Below are positions 3,869 through 27,070 of a stretch of 32,994 nt of DNA, in pieces. How positions within the stretch are numbered: position 1 is the stretch's first letter; every line of letters begins with the position of its first letter. The translations under genes and the position numbers were made by a program. The notes under the pieces are model-generated. The model was not told the DNA's origin. It did not search any database and was given only the letters and a program-made list of their open reading frames with translations. This stretch comes from Candidatus Aminicenantota bacterium (lineage in GTDB: Bacteria > Acidobacteriota > Aminicenantia > Aminicenantales > Aminicenantaceae). The stretch is from contig WVZK01000092.1 in the NCBI GenBank assembly GCA_011772475.1, positions 1 to 32,994 of the forward strand. Reading direction: 5' to 3'.

Positions 3869-5545
3869 TTATGAAGTTCTCTGGATTATGACCAGAGTCA
3901 TATCATCAATTCGATCAGCACCTTTAGTGAATGAATCGAGTTCCTCATAAACTTTTTTCAGTATTTTAGGAGCCTGCTGTTTAGCATGCTTCCGAATAAG
4001 CTTTATGAGTCCTTTTTCATCGAATTCTTTGTCATCTTTACTCCGACTTTCAGTGATTCCGTCTGTATAAAGAACAGCCATTTCTCCAAGGTTTATTTTG
4101 ACTTTTTTCACTTCATATGTACTAGAAGGGAACATCCCCAAACACAGGCCGCAACTCTCCAAACGGGAGACGCTACCTTTTTTATCGACGATAAGCGGAG
4201 GATTATGACCAGCATTGATATATTTTAGCTCGCCAGTTTCTTTATTTAACTCGCAAAAGAAAAAAGTTATAAAAGCATTCGGGGCAGAACTGCGGTGGAC
4301 AAAATCATTCAGCTTAACTGCCATGTCTTCTATACTGTATTCAGCATAAACCTCTGAATGAAGAGCTGCTCTTAAAGAAGCCATCAGGAGGGAAGCACCA
4401 ACTCCTTTACCAGAAACATCGGCAACAACAATACCCAGGCGAGATGGGTCGATATCTATAAAATCATAATAATCTCCGCCAACTTGATAACAGGGCGTAT
4501 TATAGCCGACGATTTCAAACTTTTTGCAGGGAGGATTCTCTTTAGGGAGAAAATCTTCCTGAATCTTGGCAGCTAAAGCAAGTTCTTTTTCCATCTTTTC
4601 TTTCTCGATGGATTGGTCAATTAGCTTAGCATTTTCAATCTTGACCGCAGCCAGATTAGATAGAAGAGTTAGAAGCTTGAGATCCTCATCCGTAAACTGC
4701 TCAAGGTTTGATATCCGGTCTGCATAGATAATTCCAATGATTTCCCTGTTGTTCCATAAAGGAACGCTCATTGCCGAATGGATGTTATATTTAATAATGC
4801 TTTCCATGGCTTTGAAACGAGTGTCAGCCTGGGCATCAGAAGTCAGAATTGATGAATTCTTATCCACTGCCATGTTTATGATGCTCTGGCTTACCTGAAT
4901 CTTTTCATTCTTAAGGTTTTTATCGTTGATACGAATCACTTTGGGAATGAATTGAGCAGGATTGCCTTCTTTTAGCATCAGAATCCCCCTGTCCATTGGG
5001 AGATTCTCGCAGATCAGGTCCATGATGTTATCCAAGAGCTCATTTATAGGCTGATGAAGAAGAAGGGCTTTACTAACATCACTCATTATGGCAAAAGCTC
5101 TATGTTCTGTCCTGACTTTTTCCAAATCAACAGGTGCAAGACTTGCCTTTAGAGTTGTATCGATTTCAGTCTTGGTTAAAAGCTCTTCTACATGCATAAT
5201 GGTGTTGACGTTAGAAGAGGAGGTCGGTGATTCGGTGACTTCTACATGTGTGGGAATTTCTTTATCGAAGACAATCCTCGTTGATCCAACAAGGACTTCA
5301 TCACCTTTTTTAAGCTCGATCTCGGCCTTTATTTTTTTGCCGTTTAGAAAGGTTCCGTTCTTACTGGCATTGTCTCGAACAGACCAGCCGTCTTCCGTAG
5401 GATAAATGTAAGCATGATGTCCTGAACAGAACGGATCAAGAACGTTGATGTCATTATCAGCAGAACGGCCGATAGATATTCGATCCTTCTTAAGAGGGAT
5501 TGTGTAATCCTCTCCTTTTTTTTGATAAACATACAGTTTGGGCAT
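3869..5545 (-). CDS. FHA - GAF - PP2C/SpoIIE (RsbU-like) serine phosphatase
   Basis: FHA: ISIGRSADNDINVLDPFCSGHHAYI...NGTFLNGKKI; GAF-like centre; SpoIIE: GGDYYDFIDID...IVVADVSGKGVGASLLMA...NAGHNPPL...LYTDGITESR. Confidence 0.9.
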   Translation of the reverse strand: MPKLYVYQKKGEDYTIPLKKDRISIGRSADNDINVLDPFCSGHHAYIYPTEDGWSVRDNASKNGTFLNGKKIKAEIELKKGDEVLVGSTRIVFDKEIPTHVEVTESPTSSSNVNTIMHVEELLTKTEIDTTLKASLAPVDLEKVRTEHRAFAIMSDVSKALLLHQPINELLDNIMDLICENLPMDRGILMLKEGNPAQFIPKVIRINDKNLKNEKIQVSQSIINMAVDKNSSILTSDAQADTRFKAMESIIKYNIHSAMSVPLWNNREIIGIIYADRISNLEQFTDEDLKLLTLLSNLAAVKIENAKLIDQSIEKEKMEKELALAAKIQEDFLPKENPPCKKFEIVGYNTPCYQVGGDYYDFIDIDPSRLGIVVADVSGKGVGASLLMASLRAALHSEVYAEYSIEDMAVKLNDFVHRSSAPNAFITFFFCELNKETGELKYINAGHNPPLIVDKKGSVSRLESCGLCLGMFPSSTYEVKKVKINLGEMAVLYTDGITESRSKDDKEFDEKGLIKLIRKHAKQQAPKILKKVYEELDSFTKGADRIDDMTLVIIQRTS

Positions 5546-5827: not shown

Positions 5828-8344
5828 TTATTCTTCAGAAAGTTCAAATCTCTCCAAAATCTTAAGCATTTTCCTGCCTTTCTTAACCTTATCTTCGAAA
5901 GGAATATCCTCGATCAAAGGCAGGAGGACTTCTATTATTTCTTTCTTCACAATGTTGTCGAGAAGCTCTATAGAATAATCTATGGCTTTTTTGGTTCCAG
6001 TAGTAATATTTTGATAAGCTTTTATGATATCTTCCCTGGGGAAGATAAGACTTAGCAACTCAAAAATATATTTAAGCGACCGAGCTAAATTATTCTCTAA
6101 ATCTTTAGCCAAAAACTCTTTTTTCTTATCGGTTTCTAAATCATGGATTTCTTTTAAAATAAGGTAAGATTCTTTTATTTCCCGAATAATTTGAGGCACT
6201 ACAATCTGTTCTCGGAAATGAATTTCAGGCTTTTCTGACCTCATCTTATACATGGCGCTAACGATTTCAGATTCCACATCCCTGCTTTCTTTTCTTAATT
6301 CTAAGGACAATACATCAGCTGCCCTTTGAGCGCCTGTTTGAGCCAAAATACTAGGTATGGCCTTTCGTAATCGCACATTTTCACTCGGGTCGCCCAAATA
6401 ATCTTTTAGTGTACCTATAACCTTAACCCCATATTCTGCTAAGGCTTTATTGGCAGAACTCTGAAGGGAAGGATTTATTAAATTTTGGATTATATAAGGT
6501 ACAAGCTCCCGTTTTTTAAGCTTCCCAGCGCTCTCAAGAGCATAACTGACGACTTCTGGCGATTTATCCCTGAGAAGTTTACCTAGATTATGGACGACAG
6601 AGGGAGTCGGCTCCATCATCCCCATAACCTTAGCTGCCTCCATCCTAGAAACTTCCTCCTCTTTACCTTCCTCACCTACAATTTTATCGAGATGGTCTTT
6701 CATAAGTTCTTGATAAACATTCAAGGACATGATCTCTTTTACCTGGGCATCAAGGCTTTCCTCATCGAGAGCATCTTCGGTTTCCGGGATTAACACCTCT
6801 CCGTCTACTTCAAGAAGAGAATCCATAGAACTAGCCCTTACCTCGTCAGATTTATAAGAAATTATTTTTTTAAGCTTAGAGCTCAACTTTTCTTTCTTGA
6901 CAAGGTCAAAAAGATTCATGGCATACAGCACCGAACTCCTTTTCTTGCTTTCGATGGTGTCGAAAACCAGCTTTGTCATATCAATATCAATCTTTTCGGC
7001 AACAAATTTATCAGCATCTTGCCATTTTATCTCGATGTTTTTCTTCACAATATTCACATACTCCTTGGTAATCAAAAGGTTGAGAATGATCCAGATAAGT
7101 ATAAACGCGATGGCGACGAAGCTTATATATTTGATCTCAAAGCTCAGGACTGAGAAAAACAAAAGAATTAGAAGAGCTCCTATGCCTTTAGCAAACTTGT
7201 TGACGAACATGTCGATGAATACTTTTGCTTTGTACTTTATCTCAGGAGGGATCGGGATATAAAGCAATTCCCTGACAGATTGGTTGAGTGAATGAGCAAG
7301 ACTTTTGTCGGTTCCTTTGATAATAAGAGCCCAATAAACTAAAGCGAAAGGGAAAATAAAAATCACACCAGACAACAGCAACAAAAAGAATGGGGCAACC
7401 AAAAGAGCAACCCGAATTCCAAAATTTTTCAAGATGCTGTTGGTCGAGAAAACATGAAGGAGATTTGAAAAAATAAGGAATACGGTAAAAAATATGCCGA
7501 GAAAAGCAGTCCTCGCATCCTTGCTCGGATAGGCATCTTCGACAAAATAATTGAACTGAAAATCAATCAAAGTTGTAACAATAATAGCCGCTGCCATAAT
7601 CCCGGTCAAAAGCAACAAATGTCGATTTTTTCTAAGCAGGCCAAAGCTCTTACCATATCCAATTTTTGGCCTCTTCCGCACCTCAGCTGGCTTGACCTCC
7701 TCTTTTTTCTCTTTTTGAATGACTCTATGAACGCGACTGACAATGACGAGACAGATACAAAGCATAAAAGGGCAGATTAAAAGAAGATTTTCGGTTCCCA
7801 CAATTTTAGACAAAGAAGCAATGAGAGCTCCCGCAACTCCACCCAAAAGCCCTCCGCTCACTAAGAAGCCGACAAGTCTTTTTGCCTGCCGAGGATTATA
7901 AATATCATTGATCAATATCCAGAATTGAGTAACAGAAGTTACCAGGAATATATCTGCCCAGAACCAGAATACCATTGAAATCCAATTCCAGTATAAAAGA
8001 GGTAGCCAATTCCTTCCTTGAGTGAAAAGAAGCCAGAATATTAAAAGACAAGTTATGAAAAAGACCAAGCTGAGAGATATGTATACGTGTCTCTTCACAA
8101 CCCGCAGCAGCCTTGAGTTCAGGGTGACAAAAAATCCTATCAGGATGGCAGTCAAAAGATATGCATAAGGGAGTCTCCTGGATGAAAGCTTCTCCAGGAA
8201 ATCGGAAATCTTGACCAGTTTGATGATGTAAGCAGAAGAAGTGATCAGGAAAAAATAAGAAAACATAAGCCCAGAGGTAGATATTTCCTCAGGCCTGACA
8301 TCAACAAAGCGTGACAGAATTTTATGAAATGAGTTCTTAGCCAT
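5828..8344 (-). CDS. ATP/ADP translocase-like (Npt/NTT, MFS-type) membrane protein with C-terminal HEAT-like domain
   Basis: Multi-TM N-terminal half with VTQFWILINDIYNPRQAKRLVGFLVSGGLLGGVAGAL; C-terminal soluble alpha-helical repeats. The track start 8353 is GTG; ATG at 8344 gives MAKNSFHKILSRFV, aligning with the paralog MAKNLLNRVLSRFV. Confidence 0.75.
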   Translation of the reverse strand: MAKNSFHKILSRFVDVRPEEISTSGLMFSYFFLITSSAYIIKLVKISDFLEKLSSRRLPYAYLLTAILIGFFVTLNSRLLRVVKRHVYISLSLVFFITCLLIFWLLFTQGRNWLPLLYWNWISMVFWFWADIFLVTSVTQFWILINDIYNPRQAKRLVGFLVSGGLLGGVAGALIASLSKIVGTENLLLICPFMLCICLVIVSRVHRVIQKEKKEEVKPAEVRKRPKIGYGKSFGLLRKNRHLLLLTGIMAAAIIVTTLIDFQFNYFVEDAYPSKDARTAFLGIFFTVFLIFSNLLHVFSTNSILKNFGIRVALLVAPFFLLLLSGVIFIFPFALVYWALIIKGTDKSLAHSLNQSVRELLYIPIPPEIKYKAKVFIDMFVNKFAKGIGALLILLFFSVLSFEIKYISFVAIAFILIWIILNLLITKEYVNIVKKNIEIKWQDADKFVAEKIDIDMTKLVFDTIESKKRSSVLYAMNLFDLVKKEKLSSKLKKIISYKSDEVRASSMDSLLEVDGEVLIPETEDALDEESLDAQVKEIMSLNVYQELMKDHLDKIVGEEGKEEEVSRMEAAKVMGMMEPTPSVVHNLGKLLRDKSPEVVSYALESAGKLKKRELVPYIIQNLINPSLQSSANKALAEYGVKVIGTLKDYLGDPSENVRLRKAIPSILAQTGAQRAADVLSLELRKESRDVESEIVSAMYKMRSEKPEIHFREQIVVPQIIREIKESYLILKEIHDLETDKKKEFLAKDLENNLARSLKYIFELLSLIFPREDIIKAYQNITTGTKKAIDYSIELLDNIVKKEIIEVLLPLIEDIPFEDKVKKGRKMLKILERFELSEE

Positions 8345-8349
8345 TAAGT

Positions 8350-10872
8350 TCACTGCATCTTAGGAAAAGCCTTAAAAAGAACCCTGCATTTTTTTACCCT
8401 TTCTTCAAGCGAAAGATCTTCAATAAGCGGAAAGATTACATCTCTAATATCTTTGGGCAGTATATTATCGAGAAGTTCGACAGCATAATCTATAGAATCC
8501 TTCGTTGCCGTCCTTATGTTCTGGTATGCTCTGAAAATATCCTCGTGAGGATAGATGAGCCCCAATAATTTAAAAATGTTCATCATTGAAGCGGCCAGAT
8601 CCTCTGACAATTTTCCGCTCATCTCTGGCCTCTTTACTTCAGATTTTGTTTCGTAAGAATTAATAAGAATCTGATAGTATCTCTTTATTTCTTTGAATAT
8701 CTTAGTCTTTATAATCTCCGCCTGGACCTGAATATCAGGCTGTCCAGAACGAATCCTATCCAAAGCATCTATGAGCTCATTATCCATATCTTCGTTTTCT
8801 TCTGCTAACTCCCAGGCTAATAAATCTGCAGAATCTTGAATAGGAATTCGAGCCAAAACTGAAGCCACTTCTTTCCGCAATCCAACATCCTCGTCATAAT
8901 CTCCCAAATAATCTGACAGAGTACCGACAATTCTTTCCCCATATTTTTCAAGAGCAGCAGAGGCATCTTCTCTCGTTAAAGGATTATCTAACTTGTAGAT
9001 TAAGCCAGGAACAAGCTCTCTTCTCTTTAGCCTTGCCGCGCTTTCAATTGCATATTTACTCACTTCTGGCGATTCATCTTCAAGGAGTTCTTCAAGTTTT
9101 TGAGCAAGCGGAGAATCAGATTCCATCAATCCTATGGCTTTGGCCACTTCCATCTTTGATGTCTTAGTTTCATTAGTCTTATCAACTAGGACTTTGTCAA
9201 TGTATCCTTTCATCACCTCTTGATAAACATCTAGGGACATTATCTCTTGAACCTCTTTTTCCAAGACTTCCTCGCCTAACATGTCATCCGTTTCAGGAAT
9301 TAAGGTTGTCTCCCCAGATTCAAATAAACCCCCTAATGAAGCGACTCTCCTTTCATCGGCTTTATAAGAGATTAATTTTCTCACTTCAGGAGTGAGCTTA
9401 TCTTGCTTAATCAAATCATAGAGATGCATGGCGTACAAAACTGAACTTCTTTCCCTGCTTTCTATCGTATCAAAGACTAATTTTGTATAATCCACATCCA
9501 TCTTTTCAGCCACCAATCTATCCCCTCTATCCCACTTCACATCTAATTTCTGTTTAACAATATTGGTATACTCTTTGCTTACTTTTAGGTTAAGTAGAAG
9601 CCATGCTCCGATAAAAATAACAGCAATAATGCTCACAAGTTGAACTTTATCTCTCCAATCCCACTGCCAATTTTCAGGGGGAAGAAAGATATAAACTAAA
9701 AACAAAAGTATCAAGGCCCCAACGCCTTTGGCAAATCTATTGAGAAACATATCGATAAATACCTTTGCTTTATACTTAAGCTCCGGCGAGATAGGGATAT
9801 AAAGTAGCTCCCGCACATACTGGTTAATAGAAAAAGAGAGACTCTTATCGCCAGCTTTGATAGCAAGAGCAAAAACAAAAATTTCAGGCCGATAGCCTAT
9901 TCCAAAAATACAAAGCAACAATACTAGAGGGAAGAGTAAAAGAGTAACGCGAATCCCATAGCGTTTAAGAATATTGCTGGACATAAATATTGATATGAAA
10001 AAAGGAATAACCAACAATGCTGCATGAAAAAATCCAAAAAATTCCAACTTTTCATCCATTCTCTCTATTTTAATGTCGATAACAGTCTTGGACTGCCAAT
10101 CAATAAATGTTGAAACAATAAATGTTAAAGTCACGACACCAGCCAGAAGTTTTAAATAATAATTTTTTCTCACTGTATTAAAACAATCTATGAAGCCAAC
10201 CTTAACCTGCTCTGCCCCCCTTTCTCTATGTTTATGATCTACCTTATCATCTGGAGGGGACTTTTTTCTCTGCCAAATGAATATATGATTTACGACAAAA
10301 ATACTGAGCACAAGCAATCCAGAGGCAATGATAAGAACAATATCGGGCATGTCTCTACCTAATAATCCCGTCAGCAAACCCCCTAAGATACCTCCAAAAA
10401 GTCCGCCACTACCAAAGAAGCCAATCAGCCTTTTGACTTCTCTCGGATTAAAAATATCATTCACTAATATCCAGAATTGGGTTATAAGGACCACAACAAA
10501 AGTGTTTGCCCACACCCAAAATGCGAGAGGCATCCAACTCAAATCCAGATTGAAAAGCCAGCGAGAAAGTAAACAGGTGAGAGCAAAAAATGTGACGCTT
10601 GAGATTATTAAGACGCGTCTCTGAATTCTAACTTGAAGCTTGGTATAAAAATGAACAAAAAAACCCATAAAAAGAGCTGTTAATAAGTAGGCATAAGGTA
10701 GTCTTGCAGATGTTAACTCAATTAAGTATTTTGCATCTCTATAGGGTTTAATAATGTAATACGGGAACATAATAAGAAAGAGATAAAGAAAAAGAAGGGA
10801 GGCAATGACTTCTTCGCCGGGTTTGATCTCTACAAAGCGCGATAGAACTCTATTGAGGAGGTTTTTTGCCAT
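8350..10872 (-). CDS. ATP/ADP translocase-like (Npt/NTT) membrane protein with C-terminal HEAT-like domain (tandem paralog)
   Basis: Paralogous over full length to the downstream gene: ITQFWILVNDIFNPREVKRLIGFFGSGGLFGG; KLVFDTIESRERSSVLYAMHLYDLIK. Confidence 0.75.
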   Translation of the reverse strand: MAKNLLNRVLSRFVEIKPGEEVIASLLFLYLFLIMFPYYIIKPYRDAKYLIELTSARLPYAYLLTALFMGFFVHFYTKLQVRIQRRVLIISSVTFFALTCLLSRWLFNLDLSWMPLAFWVWANTFVVVLITQFWILVNDIFNPREVKRLIGFFGSGGLFGGILGGLLTGLLGRDMPDIVLIIASGLLVLSIFVVNHIFIWQRKKSPPDDKVDHKHRERGAEQVKVGFIDCFNTVRKNYYLKLLAGVVTLTFIVSTFIDWQSKTVIDIKIERMDEKLEFFGFFHAALLVIPFFISIFMSSNILKRYGIRVTLLLFPLVLLLCIFGIGYRPEIFVFALAIKAGDKSLSFSINQYVRELLYIPISPELKYKAKVFIDMFLNRFAKGVGALILLFLVYIFLPPENWQWDWRDKVQLVSIIAVIFIGAWLLLNLKVSKEYTNIVKQKLDVKWDRGDRLVAEKMDVDYTKLVFDTIESRERSSVLYAMHLYDLIKQDKLTPEVRKLISYKADERRVASLGGLFESGETTLIPETDDMLGEEVLEKEVQEIMSLDVYQEVMKGYIDKVLVDKTNETKTSKMEVAKAIGLMESDSPLAQKLEELLEDESPEVSKYAIESAARLKRRELVPGLIYKLDNPLTREDASAALEKYGERIVGTLSDYLGDYDEDVGLRKEVASVLARIPIQDSADLLAWELAEENEDMDNELIDALDRIRSGQPDIQVQAEIIKTKIFKEIKRYYQILINSYETKSEVKRPEMSGKLSEDLAASMMNIFKLLGLIYPHEDIFRAYQNIRTATKDSIDYAVELLDNILPKDIRDVIFPLIEDLSLEERVKKCRVLFKAFPKMQ

Positions 10873-10904: not shown

Positions 10905-11255
10905 TTACTGATCCTTATTAAAGCTATCCAAGGCGACTTCTTCTTCGTCAAAAATTTCAAGCACTTTAGTTAGCATTGTGACTTGAAAGACGAGGTAGAG
11001 TTTCTTTGATATTTTTGCTATCTTCAGTTTCCCCCCTAGATTATGAGTAGAAATATAGCTGGCCAATATTTCCCCTACCCCGAAGCTATCGATAAAATCG
11101 ACATTCTGAAAATTGAGAAGTATGTTCCTTTTGCCGGCATCCAATTGATCTTTAACGAGCTGATGAAGAGTGAAATCGGTTACGTCCGATCTTCTTATCT
11201 CCCCCTCGATATCAAAAATAACAATATCTGTTTTTTCTCTTGTATTAATTTCCAT
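10905..11255 (-). CDS. STAS domain protein (anti-sigma factor antagonist, RsbV-like)
   Basis: 116 aa; NILLNFQNVDFIDSFGVGEILASY carries the STAS phosphosite-type DSFGVG motif. Confidence 0.85.
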   Translation of the reverse strand: MEINTREKTDIVIFDIEGEIRRSDVTDFTLHQLVKDQLDAGKRNILLNFQNVDFIDSFGVGEILASYISTHNLGGKLKIAKISKKLYLVFQVTMLTKVLEIFDEEEVALDSFNKDQ

Positions 11256-12373: not shown

Positions 12374-13537
12374 ATGAAAAACGACGTTATTAAGTTAATG
12401 ATGAGAAAAACTAAAGCTATACTACTATTAGCCGTTCTCGCCTTCGCCTCTCTTGCCAATCTGTGTTCAGCTGATACACAGTGCGAATGGACTGGCATCG
12501 AAAAGATTGTAGCTGTGGGAGACATACACGGCGACTACCAGGCCTTCGTCGAAATTCTAAAAGGAACAGGATTAATAGATAAAAAACTCCATTGGACAGG
12601 TGGGAAGACTCACCTGGTTCAAATCGGGGATGTATTAGATAGAGGTGATTACGCCAAGGAAATTCTTGACCTGTTGATGCAACTGGAAAAAGAAGCAGAA
12701 GAAGCAGGAGGCATGGTTCATATGCTGATTGGCAATCATGAAGAACTAAATGTTACAGGCCTAATCTTTAACCGAGAAGAATTTACTACACGCCAACTTG
12801 TCTCTTTTCTTCCTGATGGGTACAGGGAGAAGCAAGTAAAAAGATTCAGAAAAATACTGGGAGACAATCCAACTACAGAAACAGGTCTGTATGCATCCTT
12901 AGATAGTGATTTAATCCCCTACTGGGAGAATATGTTTAACGAGGTGAAAGCAAGCCGCAGACATCCCGCTAGAAGGGAATACTTATACAATTTTAATAAG
13001 AAATACGGAAAATGGATCGTTAAACAAAATGCTGTAATTAAAATCAATAATATCGTATTTGCGCACGGGGGAGTCAGCGAGAGATTATCCAAATGGGAGC
13101 TAAAGAGAATAAATAATCGCCTTCGGTTAGAGTTAGAAGATCTGAGGCGGGCGGCGATGAATCAAACACGACCTAAGATTCAAGATTATCAGCGCCAAAT
13201 TGTTTATGCACCTGATGGGCCATACTGGTACAGGGGTTTTTATTTAATGGATGAAGATGAGAATAAAGACACCGTGGATACAATCCTAAAAAACCTCGGC
13301 GCTGAATACATGGTAATAGCCCATACTCCTCAGGTAATTAAGTCAAAGGAAGATATGCAGCTTTTTCAAGGAAGGATTTGGATAATCGATACTGGTATTT
13401 CAAAAATCTACAGAGAACACTTGCAGGGACGCCTCAGCGCCTTGATTATAAACAAAGGAGAATTCGATGTATGGGGGTTGGACAATGAAAAAAAAGAAAG
13501 CCTTAGCCATAATGATTCTTACATTCTTTTTCTCTGA
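12374..13537 (+). CDS. Secreted Shewanella-like PPP family phosphatase (metallophosphoesterase)
   Basis: Signal peptide MMRKTKAILLLAVLAFASLANLCSA; PPP motifs VGDIHGD, IGDVLDRGD, IGNHEE, FAHGG, WYRG, IAHTP. Confidence 0.85.
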   Translation: MKNDVIKLMMRKTKAILLLAVLAFASLANLCSADTQCEWTGIEKIVAVGDIHGDYQAFVEILKGTGLIDKKLHWTGGKTHLVQIGDVLDRGDYAKEILDLLMQLEKEAEEAGGMVHMLIGNHEELNVTGLIFNREEFTTRQLVSFLPDGYREKQVKRFRKILGDNPTTETGLYASLDSDLIPYWENMFNEVKASRRHPARREYLYNFNKKYGKWIVKQNAVIKINNIVFAHGGVSERLSKWELKRINNRLRLELEDLRRAAMNQTRPKIQDYQRQIVYAPDGPYWYRGFYLMDEDENKDTVDTILKNLGAEYMVIAHTPQVIKSKEDMQLFQGRIWIIDTGISKIYREHLQGRLSALIINKGEFDVWGLDNEKKESLSHNDSYILFL

Positions 13538-14276
13538 AGCCTGGTTTCACTCAAAATCACAAGCAGTTACTCAAGAAAATGAGAAGCAAAAAGAGCTGGA
13601 GAATTACTTAAGAACAGCTAAGATTGTATCTAAGAGGCGAGCAGGAGGCAGGGGAGAAAACTGGATAATAAGCCTGGACGATGGAAAAATTTCGAGCTAT
13701 GCATTCTATAAGCTTCTTGATGAAACTAGACCAGAGGCCCCTATCGGCGACAGCTATAAATACGGGATTGCTGCCTATGAGCTGGATAAACTCCTTGATC
13801 TTGGCTTAGTCCCTCCTGTCGTAGAAAGAGAAATAGAAGGCAGAAAAGGTTCGCTTCAGATATTCATCGAGGGCGCTCTATATGAAAGTGTCCGAAGGAT
13901 GAAGAATATTAAGCCACCAGAGCCTGAGAAGTTTAAAAATATTATGGAAGACTTAATTGTTTTTGAGAACTTGACTTGGTCCCCCTCCTATTGCGGAGAG
14001 AGAGAGCTGGACGATATCCTAATAATGCAGAGAGAGGACTGGAAAGTCTGGAGGGTTGACTTCTCTGAAGCCTTTCCCCCTTCACCAGAGCTAATCCCAG
14101 GATGCGAAATAACTGGCTGTTCCAAGAGGCTTTGTGAAAACCTGATAAAATTGAATGATGAAGCGATTAAAGCCAAGCTAAAGCCTTATCTAAATGATGA
14201 AGAAATGAGCATGTTGCTGAGAAGAAAAAAACTCATCGTTGAAAAGATCAAAAAACTAATTGCTGAAGAAGGGTAA
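13485..14276 (+). CDS. Secreted degenerate kinase-like protein (paralog of the genes at 17339 and 18250)
   Basis: Start MKKKKALAIMILTFFF (signal peptide) preferred over upstream ATG 13467; shared segments LRTAKIVSK, YGIAAYELDKLLDLGLVPPVVER, KGSLQIFI, WRVDFSEAF; the NxDRxxxN catalytic motif is not recognisable. Confidence 0.7.
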   Translation: MKKKKALAIMILTFFFSEAWFHSKSQAVTQENEKQKELENYLRTAKIVSKRRAGGRGENWIISLDDGKISSYAFYKLLDETRPEAPIGDSYKYGIAAYELDKLLDLGLVPPVVEREIEGRKGSLQIFIEGALYESVRRMKNIKPPEPEKFKNIMEDLIVFENLTWSPSYCGERELDDILIMQREDWKVWRVDFSEAFPPSPELIPGCEITGCSKRLCENLIKLNDEAIKAKLKPYLNDEEMSMLLRRKKLIVEKIKKLIAEEG

Positions 14277-16178: not shown

Positions 16179-17027
16179 TTAGCGCAGGTCTTTGATTTTG
16201 ATGATTCCCCCCTCGCCCTGAGCAATGTACAAATAGCCTTCTTCATCCTTGGCAAGACCTTCCTGGTTGTTCCCGAGGAAAGCATATTCCCTGATTAATT
16301 TCCCCTCAAGAGTTATCTCTACCAGGATGTTGTAAGCATCGCTGACAATGTTTAAATTCCCTGTTTTTCTATCATAATACATGCCTCCAGGATCATCCAT
16401 TTTGAACGGTAGAACCCGGATAATCCTGGCCTCGGCCTCCTCGCCTTGGCTCGACTCAAGGGGAACCAGAATTTCCACTATACAAGCAGGGTCCCATTGA
16501 TTGCCCGCATAGAAAGTCCCGCCTTCAGGATGATCTTTATCAGCGACAAAAGCAATTGATTCAATCCCCTGATCGTAGCCTTCCTGTTTTTGGAGAAAGT
16601 TAGGATTTCCCTGGAATTCTCTGTTTATAGGAAATATTCGGCTGACCTGTCTCTTTTCAGGATCAAATTCCAGGATGACGTCCTCCCCTTCTCTGACGAT
16701 GTATAGAAGCCCTGATTGATGATTGACTGTTATCCCTTCCAAATCCCCGGGAATTTTTAGTCTAAATACAGGGTTTCCGTCAGTCTTTATTTCAGTAATT
16801 TCTCCTTCATCACTCACGACAAAAAGAGTTTTTCTGAGGGGGTGAAAACAGATACCCGAAGGTTCCACAAAGCTTTGCTGGTCAATGTTTACTCCATACC
16901 CAGGAATTCCCAGCCAATCTGCAGGAAATCGGATCGTCGGTGAATTTTCTTCTGGCGAACAACTGGCTAACAAAATTAAAGCGCCAAGCAAAAAAAGCTT
17001 TATTTTCATTCCCAATCCTTTTTTCAT
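16179..17027 (-). CDS. SdiA-regulated (YjiK-like) beta-propeller lipoprotein
   Basis: Lipobox LLASC; VEPSGICFHPLRKTLFVVSDEGEITEI, GDLEGITV, GIESIAF, NQEGLAKDEEGYLYIAQ. Confidence 0.8.
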   Translation of the reverse strand: MKKGLGMKIKLFLLGALILLASCSPEENSPTIRFPADWLGIPGYGVNIDQQSFVEPSGICFHPLRKTLFVVSDEGEITEIKTDGNPVFRLKIPGDLEGITVNHQSGLLYIVREGEDVILEFDPEKRQVSRIFPINREFQGNPNFLQKQEGYDQGIESIAFVADKDHPEGGTFYAGNQWDPACIVEILVPLESSQGEEAEARIIRVLPFKMDDPGGMYYDRKTGNLNIVSDAYNILVEITLEGKLIREYAFLGNNQEGLAKDEEGYLYIAQGEGGIIKIKDLR

Positions 17028-17253: not shown

Positions 17254-17338
17254 AAATTTTTTGGTTTGATTTTTTTTAAAAATGTAATTATATTATTAGA
17301 AAAATTTGAGGGGCAGTGTGAAACATGGAGGAATAGAA

Positions 17339-18172
17339 ATGAGACGGAAAATATTTCTTACCGTAGCTCTATTCATTTTTGCCAGCCAAAGCAATGTAGT
17401 CTACGGGCAGTTCACCCCTGATGAAATTGCTCAAAGGCAAGAAATAGAAGAATTTCTCAAAACTGCAGAGATCGTGAGATTCGAGGACATACCAGAAGGC
17501 GTTACAAAGCCAATCAGGCTCTTCTTAAAAAAAGGAGACGTTGAAATGAGCGGGGCCTGGAAAAATCCCAAGGGGATGCAAAAGGGCTTTCTTGAGGGAT
17601 GGCAGTATGAAATCGCAGCTTACGAGATGGATAAACTTCTGGAACTAAACTTGGTTCCACCCACAGTCGAGAGGATATTCAACAAGAAAAAAGGCTCCCT
17701 TCAGTTTTGGGTCGATGTTCAATTCAGTGAGCTCACTGTATTCGAACAAAAAATCGGGATTCCTCGTTCAAAATTCGAACACAAGGAGAATATGAAATAT
17801 TTAACGAGGGCTTTTGACTGCTTGATTGCGAACGATGATCGAACGCAGCAGAATATCCTCTACACCAAAGATTGGCGCGCGATTTTGATAGACCATTCTC
17901 GCTCTTTCCGGTCAAGCAAGAAATACACCAAGAAACTCATGTTTGGGAAAACAGGATTGAAAAAAGCCGGTGGTCGGCCCCAGCTCTTCAGGCGACTTCC
18001 TAGGGCTTTTGTGGAAAAGGTCAAAGCTCTGAACTATGATAATATAAAAAATGCTGTAGGTCCCTATTTAGAGGACAAGGAGATCAAAGCTATCCTTATC
18101 CGTAAGGAGCTTCTTCTTAAAGAAATAGAGGAGATGGTAAAGGAACAGGGCGAAGATAAGGTCTTATATTAA
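17339..18172 (+). CDS. Secreted PI3/4K-, HipA- or FAM20-like kinase-fold protein
   Basis: RBS GGAGGA (17327..17332) before ATG 17339; signal peptide MRRKIFLTVALFIFASQSNVVYG; SGAWKN (beta3 Lys), YEIAAYEMDKLLELNLVPPTVER, IANDDRTQQNILYTKDWRAILIDHSRSF. Confidence 0.75.
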   Translation: MRRKIFLTVALFIFASQSNVVYGQFTPDEIAQRQEIEEFLKTAEIVRFEDIPEGVTKPIRLFLKKGDVEMSGAWKNPKGMQKGFLEGWQYEIAAYEMDKLLELNLVPPTVERIFNKKKGSLQFWVDVQFSELTVFEQKIGIPRSKFEHKENMKYLTRAFDCLIANDDRTQQNILYTKDWRAILIDHSRSFRSSKKYTKKLMFGKTGLKKAGGRPQLFRRLPRAFVEKVKALNYDNIKNAVGPYLEDKEIKAILIRKELLLKEIEEMVKEQGEDKVLY

Positions 18173-18249: not shown

Positions 18250-19086
18250 ATGAAAAAAAGACTGATTATCTTTTTCGGTTTGGTGCTTGTTTTAGGATTT
18301 AGTTTCCAATCCATAGCTCAATTCACCAAAGAAGAGGCGGCAGACAGGGAGAAATGGGAAGAATTCCTCAAGACAGCAGAAATTATCGCTCAAGAACAAC
18401 CATTCGATAAACGAGAAGCTGTGACCGAGCCCTGGGTCCTCACTCTGGAAAAAGACGGAGTCAAAAATAAAGCCATATGGAAAGATGTACAAGGCCGGGC
18501 AAAAGGATTTATGGAAAGCTGGAAATGGGAAATTGCTGCCTACCTTTTAGATAAGCATTTGGGCTTGAATATGGTTCCGCCCACAGTGGAAAGAAGATTC
18601 CAGGGAAATCGCGGCTCCTGCCAATTATGGATTAAATCGATGATGAGTCTCAAGAAAAAATTCGAGGAAAAAATTAAGACTCCCTCTATTAAAGTTTTTT
18701 ATTGGAATAGAGCCTTCTACAAACAGCGGGCTTTTGATAACTTAATTGCTAACGAAGATAGACATCAAAATCAATATCTCATCACCGATGATTGGCGCAT
18801 GATCCTAATTGACCACTCCCGGTCGTTCCGGACTGCCAAGAAATTTACCAAAAAACTCATCTATGACGAAAAATACAAAGAAGGCCCAACGTTTATCATG
18901 AGGGAACTTCCCCGCGATCTTTACGAGAAGATAAAATCCCTGAATGCTGAGGTGATAAAAGGCGTCGTCGGAGAATATCTGACAGATAGCGAAATCGAGG
19001 CAGTGCTTATCCGGAAGGACTTGATAGTCAATTGGATTGAGGATCGCATCAAACAAATGGGGGAAGATAAAGTCTTATACGATTAG
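18250..19086 (+). CDS. Secreted PI3/4K-, HipA- or FAM20-like kinase-fold protein (tandem paralog)
   Basis: Signal peptide MKKRLIIFFGLVLVLGFSFQSIA; NKAIWKD, WEIAAYLLDKHLGLNMVPPTVER, IANEDRHQNQYLITDDWRMILIDHSRSF; RBS aggaggag upstream. Confidence 0.8.
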   Translation: MKKRLIIFFGLVLVLGFSFQSIAQFTKEEAADREKWEEFLKTAEIIAQEQPFDKREAVTEPWVLTLEKDGVKNKAIWKDVQGRAKGFMESWKWEIAAYLLDKHLGLNMVPPTVERRFQGNRGSCQLWIKSMMSLKKKFEEKIKTPSIKVFYWNRAFYKQRAFDNLIANEDRHQNQYLITDDWRMILIDHSRSFRTAKKFTKKLIYDEKYKEGPTFIMRELPRDLYEKIKSLNAEVIKGVVGEYLTDSEIEAVLIRKDLIVNWIEDRIKQMGEDKVLYD

Positions 19087-19505
19087 ATAGAGGACTGCGC
19101 TTCTTTAATTGTTTTATAAATAGTAAGAACGTTCTGATCTTTCTCCCGCTTGTAATCAAATCCATCCATAAGCTTGCGGGAAAGGAAAACTCCTAATCCA
19201 CCTTTTTTCTCGCTCTTGATTATCTCCCGGATATTAGGCTCCTCCAATCCTCTAGGATCAAACGGAACGCCCCAATCCCTTATTTCCAGATACATCTTTC
19301 CCTCGTCCAACCAAATCTTAAGAAAGATCTCGCCTTTATTATTAGGATAAGCATACCTGATAATATTTACACATATCTCCAGGAGCGCGAGTTCTATCTT
19401 AAAGTAATCCTTATCTGAAACACTCAATCCTTCCAAGTTTTGCTTCAAAAAAGTCCTCATCTTATCTAACTCAGCTAAATCACTTGCGATTTTTATTGTA
19501 TTCAT
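19083..19505 (-). CDS. ATP-binding anti-sigma regulatory factor (RsbW-like, HATPase_c_2)
   Basis: FKIELALLEICVNIIRYAYPN (N-box), LEIRDWGVPFDP (G1), KKGGLGVFLSRKLMD (G2). Confidence 0.85.
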   Translation of the reverse strand: MNTIKIASDLAELDKMRTFLKQNLEGLSVSDKDYFKIELALLEICVNIIRYAYPNNKGEIFLKIWLDEGKMYLEIRDWGVPFDPRGLEEPNIREIIKSEKKGGLGVFLSRKLMDGFDYKREKDQNVLTIYKTIKEAQSSI

Positions 19506-25075: not shown

Positions 25076-27070
25076 TTATATCTTATCTTCCTTTGTAATT
25101 TTCCAGACATTTCCTTGTTTTTCCATTGTCCAGATTACTTGTCCCTCAAAAACCTTTTCCCTCTGACCAGTTTGTTTGTTAACAGCAGTCGAGAAATTAA
25201 AAAATTTTACGTCGGCATGCTTTCTATCTTTAAATCTAATCGAAATACTCGCCTTGTCTACGATAGACATTATATCATCATAATAATTAATGATTTCCCG
25301 TAAATCTGATCTTTTCGTATACTGCAACTCTGGAGACCCGACATAAGAGATAATTAGTGGGAGGTCTTTTTCCTCCTCGGCTTTCCTCAGTGTTTCTATT
25401 ATTCGTTTAATTTCATTCTTGGAGTTAGCTTCATAAATGATATTATCCGCTAAATTCCAGTATTTTTTAGCCTCTTTATGATCCTTATCCAACTTTAAAA
25501 TCTTTTCCATTTCCCGCATGCTTTTTCTATAGTCTTTGTTATTATAACTGTTGATCCCGGTCTCAAGGGTTTGGGCGATCATAATCTCATTATTCGCTTT
25601 TGTTATTAGATCTTGAGCTTCATTGTTTTTGGGGTATTTTGCAATAACTTCTTCTGCAAGCCTTATCGTCTCGTCATAATCGCCTTTCTCAAAACTTTCG
25701 TTAGCCCTGTTCAATTTATCTTCTGTGCTGCCAGGAATGACAGCTCTTGTCTCGGGAGGTTCTTTTGTATCTATCTTTTTTTCGGCTTCAGCAACGTCCG
25801 GTTTTTTATCTTGAGGCAAGGAAGGTGCCTCTGCCTTTATTTCTTCTGTCCCCGGAGTTTGAGCAACCAGGGCTTCATCTATTTTGCTTTTTGCTTCACT
25901 TAAGTATTGCTGGGCTCTTATGTTTTCAGCATCTTCGGAGAGAACCTCTTCTGCCAGTCTTACTGTCTCCGTATAGTCCGCCTTATCAAAGCTCTCTTTA
26001 GCCCTGTTCAGTTTATCTTCTATACTACCAGGTGGCGGGGATACCAGAGATTTTTCTGCTTTCGTTCCTTTGAACAGGCCTGAAAGAAAAGGTATCTCTC
26101 CTGTCTTTTGGTAGGAAAAATAGCCAGCTCCTGCAGCGGCCAACAGAATCACTGCTGAGGAAATGGCTATGACGGGCCAAACTTTCCGCTTTTTCTTCAT
26201 CATCAAGGTTGGGAGTTCCTCTTTAGCCATTGTAACGGGTATTGTCTTATCAGATATTTGGTCAAAATTGTGCAAATCTGAGGCAACCTCAGCACAAGTC
26301 TGGTAGCGATCTCTCGGATCTTTAGCTAAAGCCTTACAGACTATCTGTTCAAAACCAACTGGTAGACCTTTTTTTACTTCAGTCAAAGCAACTGGCTCTT
26401 CATTGATAATCTTATAAATTACTGTGGTAATACTTTGAGCCTGAAAAGCCCTTTGTCCCGTGAGAAGCTCGTAAAGGATGCTCCCCAATGAGAATATATC
26501 TGAGCGCCTATCTACCTTTTTCCCCATAACCTGCTCCGGGGACATATAACTCGGTGTACCCAGCGTTGTCCCCGCTTCAGTCAAGGTCGATGTCTCAAGA
26601 CGAGCTACTCCAAAGTCAACAATGAAAGGTTTCCCCACTTTATCCAATAAAATATTGGCAGGCTTAATATCTCTATGGATGATTCCATTATTATGAGCAT
26701 AATCTAAAGCTTTGCATAATTGGTCCATGAGCTCGATTACTTCATGAGTGGATATTTTCTCACCTGAACTTATTACCTTTTGGAGACTCTTGCCTTCTAT
26801 CAATTGCATAACAATGTATGTCATGTCTTTTCCTCTGCCGACATCATAGATGGTGATAATATTTGAGTGGGTTAGCTTACCTGCAGCCTGAGCCTCCCTC
26901 ATGAACCTTTCCATCATTTCTTCTCTGTCACCTTCCTCAGAGACCAGGTCAAAGCGTATAGTCTTTATAGCCACTTCTCGATTTATATCGGGATCAAGGG
27001 CTTTATAGACAATCCCCATGGCTCCCTTTCCAAGGATGCTGGTGATTTTGTATTTGCCTATATTTTTCAT
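25076..27070 (-). CDS. Transmembrane Ser/Thr protein kinase with extracytoplasmic TPR-like region and C-terminal NTF2/SnoaL-like domain
   Basis: Kinase motifs GKGAMG, AIKTI, HRDIKPANILLD, DFGVARLE, GTPSYMSPEQ; TM VWPVIAISSAVILLAAAGAGYF; C-terminal EGQVIWTMEKQGNVWKITKED. Confidence 0.9.
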   Translation of the reverse strand: MKNIGKYKITSILGKGAMGIVYKALDPDINREVAIKTIRFDLVSEEGDREEMMERFMREAQAAGKLTHSNIITIYDVGRGKDMTYIVMQLIEGKSLQKVISSGEKISTHEVIELMDQLCKALDYAHNNGIIHRDIKPANILLDKVGKPFIVDFGVARLETSTLTEAGTTLGTPSYMSPEQVMGKKVDRRSDIFSLGSILYELLTGQRAFQAQSITTVIYKIINEEPVALTEVKKGLPVGFEQIVCKALAKDPRDRYQTCAEVASDLHNFDQISDKTIPVTMAKEELPTLMMKKKRKVWPVIAISSAVILLAAAGAGYFSYQKTGEIPFLSGLFKGTKAEKSLVSPPPGSIEDKLNRAKESFDKADYTETVRLAEEVLSEDAENIRAQQYLSEAKSKIDEALVAQTPGTEEIKAEAPSLPQDKKPDVAEAEKKIDTKEPPETRAVIPGSTEDKLNRANESFEKGDYDETIRLAEEVIAKYPKNNEAQDLITKANNEIMIAQTLETGINSYNNKDYRKSMREMEKILKLDKDHKEAKKYWNLADNIIYEANSKNEIKRIIETLRKAEEEKDLPLIISYVGSPELQYTKRSDLREIINYYDDIMSIVDKASISIRFKDRKHADVKFFNFSTAVNKQTGQREKVFEGQVIWTMEKQGNVWKITKEDKI

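Follow-up and report, generated by a model that had tools for sequence, protein, structure and literature searches.

To our knowledge, no ATP source has been identified for reversible phosphorylation outside the cytoplasm of bacteria, and few phosphatases are dedicated to it. The spore-coat kinase CotH is related to Fam20, and we know of no PPP phosphatase or pseudokinase that partners it. CotH is a bacterial Ser/Thr kinase with a coat protein as its substrate (available text of PMC7821199), and Legionella families have been found to cluster with FAM20/CotH, alongside a FAM20 cluster confined to eukaryotes or Metazoa (available text of PMC9758233). The animal proteins Fam20A and Fam20C (available text of PMC5865150, in which the word "bacteria" does not occur) resemble the proteins described here in their fold, in giving the best profile match, in acting outside the cytosol and in having a pseudokinase beside active paralogues; the present locus differs in being bacterial, in coupling or fusing its pseudokinase to a PPP phosphatase and in the loss of the catalytic Asp. 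Similarly, the Shewanella-like PPP phosphatases (1v73, 2z72, 2zbm) are alike in sequence, fold and PPP motifs, whereas the phosphatase here is constantly linked or fused to a Fam20-like pseudokinase. Fusions in which HEAT repeats follow a PF03219 domain, the arrangement also seen in two transporter-like proteins of our locus, are described in PMC5381601, whose available text lists one Aminicenantes NTT sequence, calls the NTT fusions functionally uncharacterised, and makes no mention of the context found here, namely a conserved cluster with putatively exported kinases and a phosphatase. A literature search, which was not exhaustive, found no description of a PPP phosphatase paired with a Fam20-like pseudokinase. 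The parts of the locus are each of a known kind, and what appears new is the combination of the phosphatase with a Fam20-like pseudokinase, clustered with predicted exported kinases and NTT carriers.

A phosphatase and a Fam20-like pseudokinase in adjoining genes

The locus lies in a stretch of 32,994 nucleotides from a Candidatus Aminicenantota bacterium, a member of a little-known group of uncultured bacteria; we refer to the whole stretch as the window. Its phosphatase gene (PP; 12374..13537, forward strand) encodes a putative exported protein of 387 aa that carries intact GDIHG, GDVLDRG, GNHE, AHGG and IAHTP motifs behind an N-terminal signal-like segment, so that the initial annotation of a phosphatase with a signal peptide and full PPP motifs, ending at 13537, holds. 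Across the family alignment, GNHE and the His of HGG were found in 56/56 rows and the Asp, His and GNHE positions in every row with letters there, while the first Gly of GDxHG was replaced by Ala in 11 rows. The only PDB matches at E <= 0.001 were Shewanella PPP structures (2z72/1v73/2zbm, E about 4e-36), and the PP part of a modelled PP-PK fusion (L023) was closer in fold to the Shewanella enzymes (Z 32) than to PP1 (Z 22). By sequence and modelled fold, PP belongs to the Shewanella-like PPP phosphatases, and phosphatase activity is predicted.

The adjoining gene (PK; 13485..14276, forward strand) encodes a putative exported pseudokinase of the Fam20/PI4K fold with 263 aa. The Asp that we take to be the catalytic base, from alignment with Fam20 chains and general knowledge of the motif, was present in none of the 47 aligned PK orthologues; its place is mostly taken by Cys, and insertions that differ in length occur there. 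This Cys may form a disulfide with Cys207, in an alignment whose gaps split the column. Other positions are conserved (Asp192, Lys/Arg76 and Cys212 in 47/47 and Asp177 in 46/47), and dN/dS was 0.33-0.43 for the whole gene and 0.29-0.41 beyond the overlap with PP; as judged from these alignments, PK is a conserved pseudokinase rather than a decaying gene.

The PK model (pLDDT 93.2) gave a VIA Z of 19.4 to hydra Fam20 (rmsd 3.4, 226 aligned), 19.0-19.2 to Fam20C, 17.7 to Fam20A and 18.4 to PI4KIIbeta. Consistent with this, profiles of the kinase family, which comprises PK and two intact paralogues (K2 and K3), retrieved FAM20A, FAM20C and FAM20B in PDB, with best E values of 5e-10 for the whole family (FAM20A), 2.7e-7 for PK alone and 1.2e-6 for K2/K3 alone, and the top sequence match of the PK profile was FAM20A. 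Because PF06702 (Fam20C) was matched at E <= 0.01 by just 10 of 52 K2/K3 members and the fold lies almost as near to PI4KII, we assign the family, on profiles and models, to the wider Fam20/PI4K group. PK itself appears to fit a Fam20A-type pseudokinase, with a kinase fold from which an active-site residue is missing. Two other assignments were rejected. HipA structures scored Z 10-12, far under the 17-19 of Fam20/PI4K, and no HipB-like Pfam match was found among the 19 window proteins scanned. Weak matches to TIGR03843 (SCO1664 family; K2, K3 and PK, the three scores in ascending order being 23.2, 39.4 and 47.7 bits) and to HipA_2 (PF20613; K2 and K3) were far under the curated cut-offs, which for TIGR03843 is 172.4 bits.

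With signal peptides judged by hydropathy alone rather than by a trained predictor, a hydrophobic N-terminal segment preceded the domain in 51/54 PP, 43/44 unfused PK, 35/35 K2 and 29/29 K3 proteins, compared with 8/162 control windows; the earlier prediction of an exported pseudokinase is borne out to this extent. In the frames that PP and PK share (see below), by contrast, such a segment stood before PK in 0/16. Since the fusions have no second export signal, the PP and PK domains should lie on the same side of the membrane, and the two proteins would act in one compartment, to which export is predicted.

Linkage, fusion and overlap of the two genes

Of the 142 genomes of the class that we searched, 67 held the kinase family and 63 the phosphatase; 60 of the latter belong to the same order as the window. 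After exclusion of repeats (L001, L003-L005, L009-L013, L018, L019, L025, L031, L068, L069 and L071) and of L002, which is not PK, 60 PK loci from 58 genomes of the order were examined, and in 60/60 PP either immediately preceded PK on the same strand or was in-frame with it. The two other PP-matching genomes of the order (G016 and G020) held fragments only, PK-like matches at G056:C21 (a fragment), G091:C394, G092:C261 and G093:C43 stand outside this count, and nine genomes of the order had kinase-family matches but no examined PK locus. The gene-neighbourhood linkage that the initial annotation had proposed to check is therefore conserved in every PK locus examined.

PP and PK shared one open frame in 16 of the 60 loci, a figure that counts loci and not independent fusion events. 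Thirteen of these frames are complete (618-764 aa), two are cut by contig ends (L024 and L067), and in one (L051) the PP part is broken by a stop. Family f1 (genus g5) and family f5 (g25-g27) contain the fusions and family f7 the broken copy, and a further PP-PK fusion (L109) was found in another class. The structure prediction for the fused protein of L023 (pLDDT 91.6, pTM 0.84) suggests a defined arrangement of the PP and PK domains. No frame joining PK to K2 or K3 was found among the loci scanned. As a separate observation, L051 (2945-4732) is a second PP-PK copy of its genome (G093) with a frame broken by TGA, which could reflect either decay of the copy or an error.

In the window, the PP frame (12374..13537) and the PK frame (13467/13485..14276) differ, and the overlap (13485..13537, forward strand) is 53 nt from the ATG at 13485 or 71 nt from that at 13467, both lengths as originally given. 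Comparison with the two nearest relatives, the Candidatus Aminicenantes MAGs L006 and L007, points to the ATG at 13485 as the right start, the one at 13467 having been rejected on the in-frame TAG or TAA that both relatives carry before the equivalent of 13485; the AAAGGAG preceding 13467 is weak evidence for that start because it falls within PP codons. In both relatives the overlap is only 11 nt, ATGAAAAATAA. At the PP stop they read GACAATGAAAAATAAGAAA where the window reads GACAATGAAAAAAAAGAAA, a single T-to-A difference that destroys the TAA, adds 14 codons to PP as a lineage-specific extension and lengthens the overlap from 11 to 53 nt, while the kinase frame is unaffected. A frameshift error near 13485..13537, or another sequencing artefact, was considered as the source of the overlap and set aside, since the difference is a substitution that spares the kinase frame and both frames are conserved in relatives. 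The base at the lost stop may still be a miscall, and the conclusions are unchanged either way.

Across the order, the ATG overlaps the PP stop by 1-20 nt in 26 of 44 unfused pairs, and individual loci have overlaps of 4, 8, 14, 17 or 89 nt, or gaps, so the length of the overlap is incidental; the 89-nt overlap recurs in family f7 (L021, L022, L074 and L075), apparently independently of the 53 nt in the window. The overlap as such is ordinary and minor, and the conserved linkage is the finding. The initial annotation had also placed the PK signal peptide within PP codons, which is true of the window but is an unconserved by-product of one lost stop. The translational coupling that it drew from the overlap is plausible, although coupling in the window may be weakened because the PP stop sits 50 nt past the PK start. 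A scan for promoters and terminators gave no signal exceeding shuffled sequence.

Intact kinases and NTT-type transporters around the pair

The overlapping genes had been read as a writer/eraser-like pair, a reading not supported, given the loss of the PK catalytic Asp in 47/47 aligned orthologues; the writers are therefore likely K2 and K3, encoded 3.8 and 4.8 kb downstream, rather than PK. Both are putative exported Fam20-like kinase paralogues, K2 (17306..18172, forward strand) with a TTG start and intact NDDR and IDHSRSF metal motifs, and K3 (18250..19086, forward strand) with intact NEDRHQN and IDHSRSF. Among 52 K2/K3 sequences, N168, D170, R171 and D188 and the N-x-D-R and D-H-S motifs were invariant, and within the family it is K2/K3 that carry both the catalytic Asp-Arg motif and the metal Asp of active Fam20 members; dN/dS of K3 was 0.15-0.20. 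The window's genome has a fourth family member outside the cluster (L002:1471-2388, contig C202), which resembles K3 and keeps its motifs intact, and in a genome of the same genus a K2 homologue is split over two frames (L073:5281-6150).

The pair and its paralogues sit in a cluster with a recurrent order, which on the reverse strand begins with an FHA-GAF-SpoIIE phosphatase of a partner-switching module (3869..5545), the NTT-HEAT fusion transporter-like proteins TLC_HEAT1 (5828..8353) and TLC_HEAT2 (8350..10872) and a STAS anti-sigma-factor antagonist (10905..11255), continues with PP, PK and the NTT-type membrane transporter-like TLC3 (ATP/ADP carrier-like, PF03219; 14755..16158) on the forward strand, often has an SdiA-regulated/phytase-like beta-propeller gene (16179..17027, reverse) between TLC3 and K2, and ends with K2, K3 and an RsbW-like anti-sigma kinase (19083..19505, reverse). 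Across 25 distinct regions of the order, in which the arrangement varies and several are limited by contig ends, 24 contained K2 or K3, 21 at least one NTT-type gene (TLC3 in 19), 21 RsbW and 20 STAS; NTT genes, RsbW and STAS were missing from L080, L082, L085 and L086, and no K2/K3 lies within 14 kb of PP-PK in L082. This locus and the nine kinase-bearing genomes without an examined PK indicate that the parts are not strictly inseparable. Elsewhere in the window lie a cytosine/purine-type permease adjoining a DUF1177 gene (412-2763) and a Hanks-type Ser/Thr kinase whose C-terminal region is TPR-like (25076-27070), adjoining NHL/PEGA and DUF5107-TPR proteins.

Against a gathering score of 21, PF03219 matched TLC3 with 45.8 bits, TLC_HEAT1 with 58.4 and TLC_HEAT2 with 59.8, and it was matched by 18/18 TLC3 members, whose profile also matched, over nearly the full length, the solved structure of an ADP,ATP carrier (PDB 9j3n, E 1.5e-13). 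The three window proteins are NTT-type by domain, and transport is predicted. KPVRE in TLC3-family proteins aligned against RDTKD of the solved carrier at the ADP-site lysine stretch, within which one residue presumably corresponds to K155 of plant NTT1. That lysine matters for ADP binding, which was impaired by K155R (available text of PMC3306366).

We then considered the phylum as a whole, where a profile search with PK, scoring just a few candidates per genome as did the other phylum searches, found the kinase family in 79 of 396 genomes, including 23 families outside the class. A PF03219 protein was present in 79/79 of these genomes and in 46/317 others (Fisher 9e-51, shared ancestry ignored), and genomes G000-G093 comprised 63 with kinase and transporter, 4 with the kinase only, 4 with the transporter only and 23 with neither. 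A control family, PF02133, was detected in 105 of 337 genomes (a smaller draw) and in 19 of the kinase genomes, which number at most 79 there, so the kinase-NTT association is not general to families of similar prevalence. We rejected the NTT genes as chance neighbours on the 79/79 versus 46/317 difference and on the lack of such a link in the control family.

Outside the class, 38 loci (L109-L128 and L141-L158) were picked from best matches or because linkage had been suggested, and proportions among them should not be taken as rates. PPP and kinase domains shared one frame in 13 of them, two degenerate (L109 and L143) and 11 with intact catalytic motifs (L119-L123, L141, L142, L144-L146 and L158), the phosphatase part being weak or partial in L119 and L120; these 11 are candidate bifunctional exported kinase-phosphatases by their motifs. 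Phosphatase and kinase genes were close together in 11 more (L147-L157), and 12/38 contained NTT-HEAT-like genes. Because most linked or fused kinases outside the class keep their catalytic motifs, the arrangement there does not require a dead partner. At L143 (2240-6176), a fused phosphatase-degenerate kinase lies beside two intact Fam20-like kinases, a window-like arrangement in a distant family. The live-kinase fusions suggest a route from a kinase-phosphatase enzyme to a phosphatase with a dead kinase handle.

A possible extracytoplasmic phosphorylation system

The reading that we favour, and consider probable though far from secure, is that PP-PK forms the eraser arm of a system for phosphorylation outside the cytoplasm, in which PK is a regulatory or docking subunit and K2/K3 write. 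Against it weigh the incomplete linkage of the parts in the order and the intact motifs of most linked or fused kinases outside the class. PP and PK would form one functional unit, as subunits from coupled genes in the window and as one polypeptide in several relatives, and the fusions and the pTM of the fused model suggest physical contact between them. PK is most likely, by analogy, a regulatory or docking subunit of PP, and may hold PP on secreted K2/K3 or on their substrates, and report nucleotide state via its retained ATP/metal residues. Docking of PK to K2/K3 is suggested by analogy with the binding of Fam20C by Fam20A, a precedent that supports a heterodimer without proving it. K2 and K3 would add phosphate, PP-PK would take it off, and the NTT-type transporters of the cluster would plausibly deliver the ATP outside the cytoplasm.

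Several other explanations bear on the same observations. PK may instead be an allosteric activator of K2/K3, with PP co-transcribed merely to balance the system. Fam20A activates Fam20C (available text of PMC5865150), no sequence matches the PK profile better than FAM20A, and intact paralogues share the cluster in 24/25 regions; however, PK is in-frame with the phosphatase in 16/60 loci and in L109 and never with K2/K3 among the loci scanned, and we regard this as unlikely. A PK that catalyses another reaction (AMPylation, glutamylation or phosphotransfer with migrated residues), making the pair a bifunctional modifier and remover, would account for the near invariance of ATP/metal positions 76, 177 and 192, and the 11 PPP-kinase frames outside the class that keep DR..N and DH motifs could be bifunctional, but the Asp is gone in 47/47, mostly to Cys with variable-length insertions, which leaves such an enzyme distinctly unlikely.

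That the neighbourhood is merely conserved, the overlap being ordinary operon compaction and the jobs of PP and PK unrelated, draws on the fact that short stop/start overlaps are common in bacteria and that the 53-nt length is due to one base. It seems highly improbable in view of the fusions, in which the second signal peptide is lost, and of further families of the phylum in which PPP genes adjoin this kinase family or are fused to it. Compatible with the favoured reading, and somewhat unlikely rather than remote, is that the substrates are glycans or lipids, with K2/K3 phosphorylating an envelope sugar or lipid that PP dephosphorylates: the fold is about equally near to Fam20 with sugar (Z 19.4) and PI4KII lipid kinases (18.4), but a Shewanella relative of PP was deposited as a protein-tyrosine phosphatase.

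Beyond the eraser arm itself, we tentatively propose, as a possibility short of even chances, that Acidobacteriota-type bacteria have a self-contained phosphorylation system outside the cytoplasm, organised like the secretory pathway of animals and made up of exported Fam20-like kinases, an exported PPP phosphatase carried on a Fam20-like pseudokinase or, in other families, joined to a live kinase, and dedicated NTT and NTT-HEAT proteins sending ATP out and ADP back. Putative writers, an eraser, a linking pseudokinase and ATP/ADP-carrier-like transporters are brought together in one cluster conserved in the order, with looser versions across the phylum, and this one gene set addresses the roles of bacterial Fam20-like kinases, the use of a pseudokinase to a phosphatase and the cargo of NTT-HEAT proteins in free-living bacteria. 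If the proposal is true, the orphan NTT-HEAT transporters of free-living bacteria would gain a function and the ATP problem of extracytoplasmic kinases would be solved.
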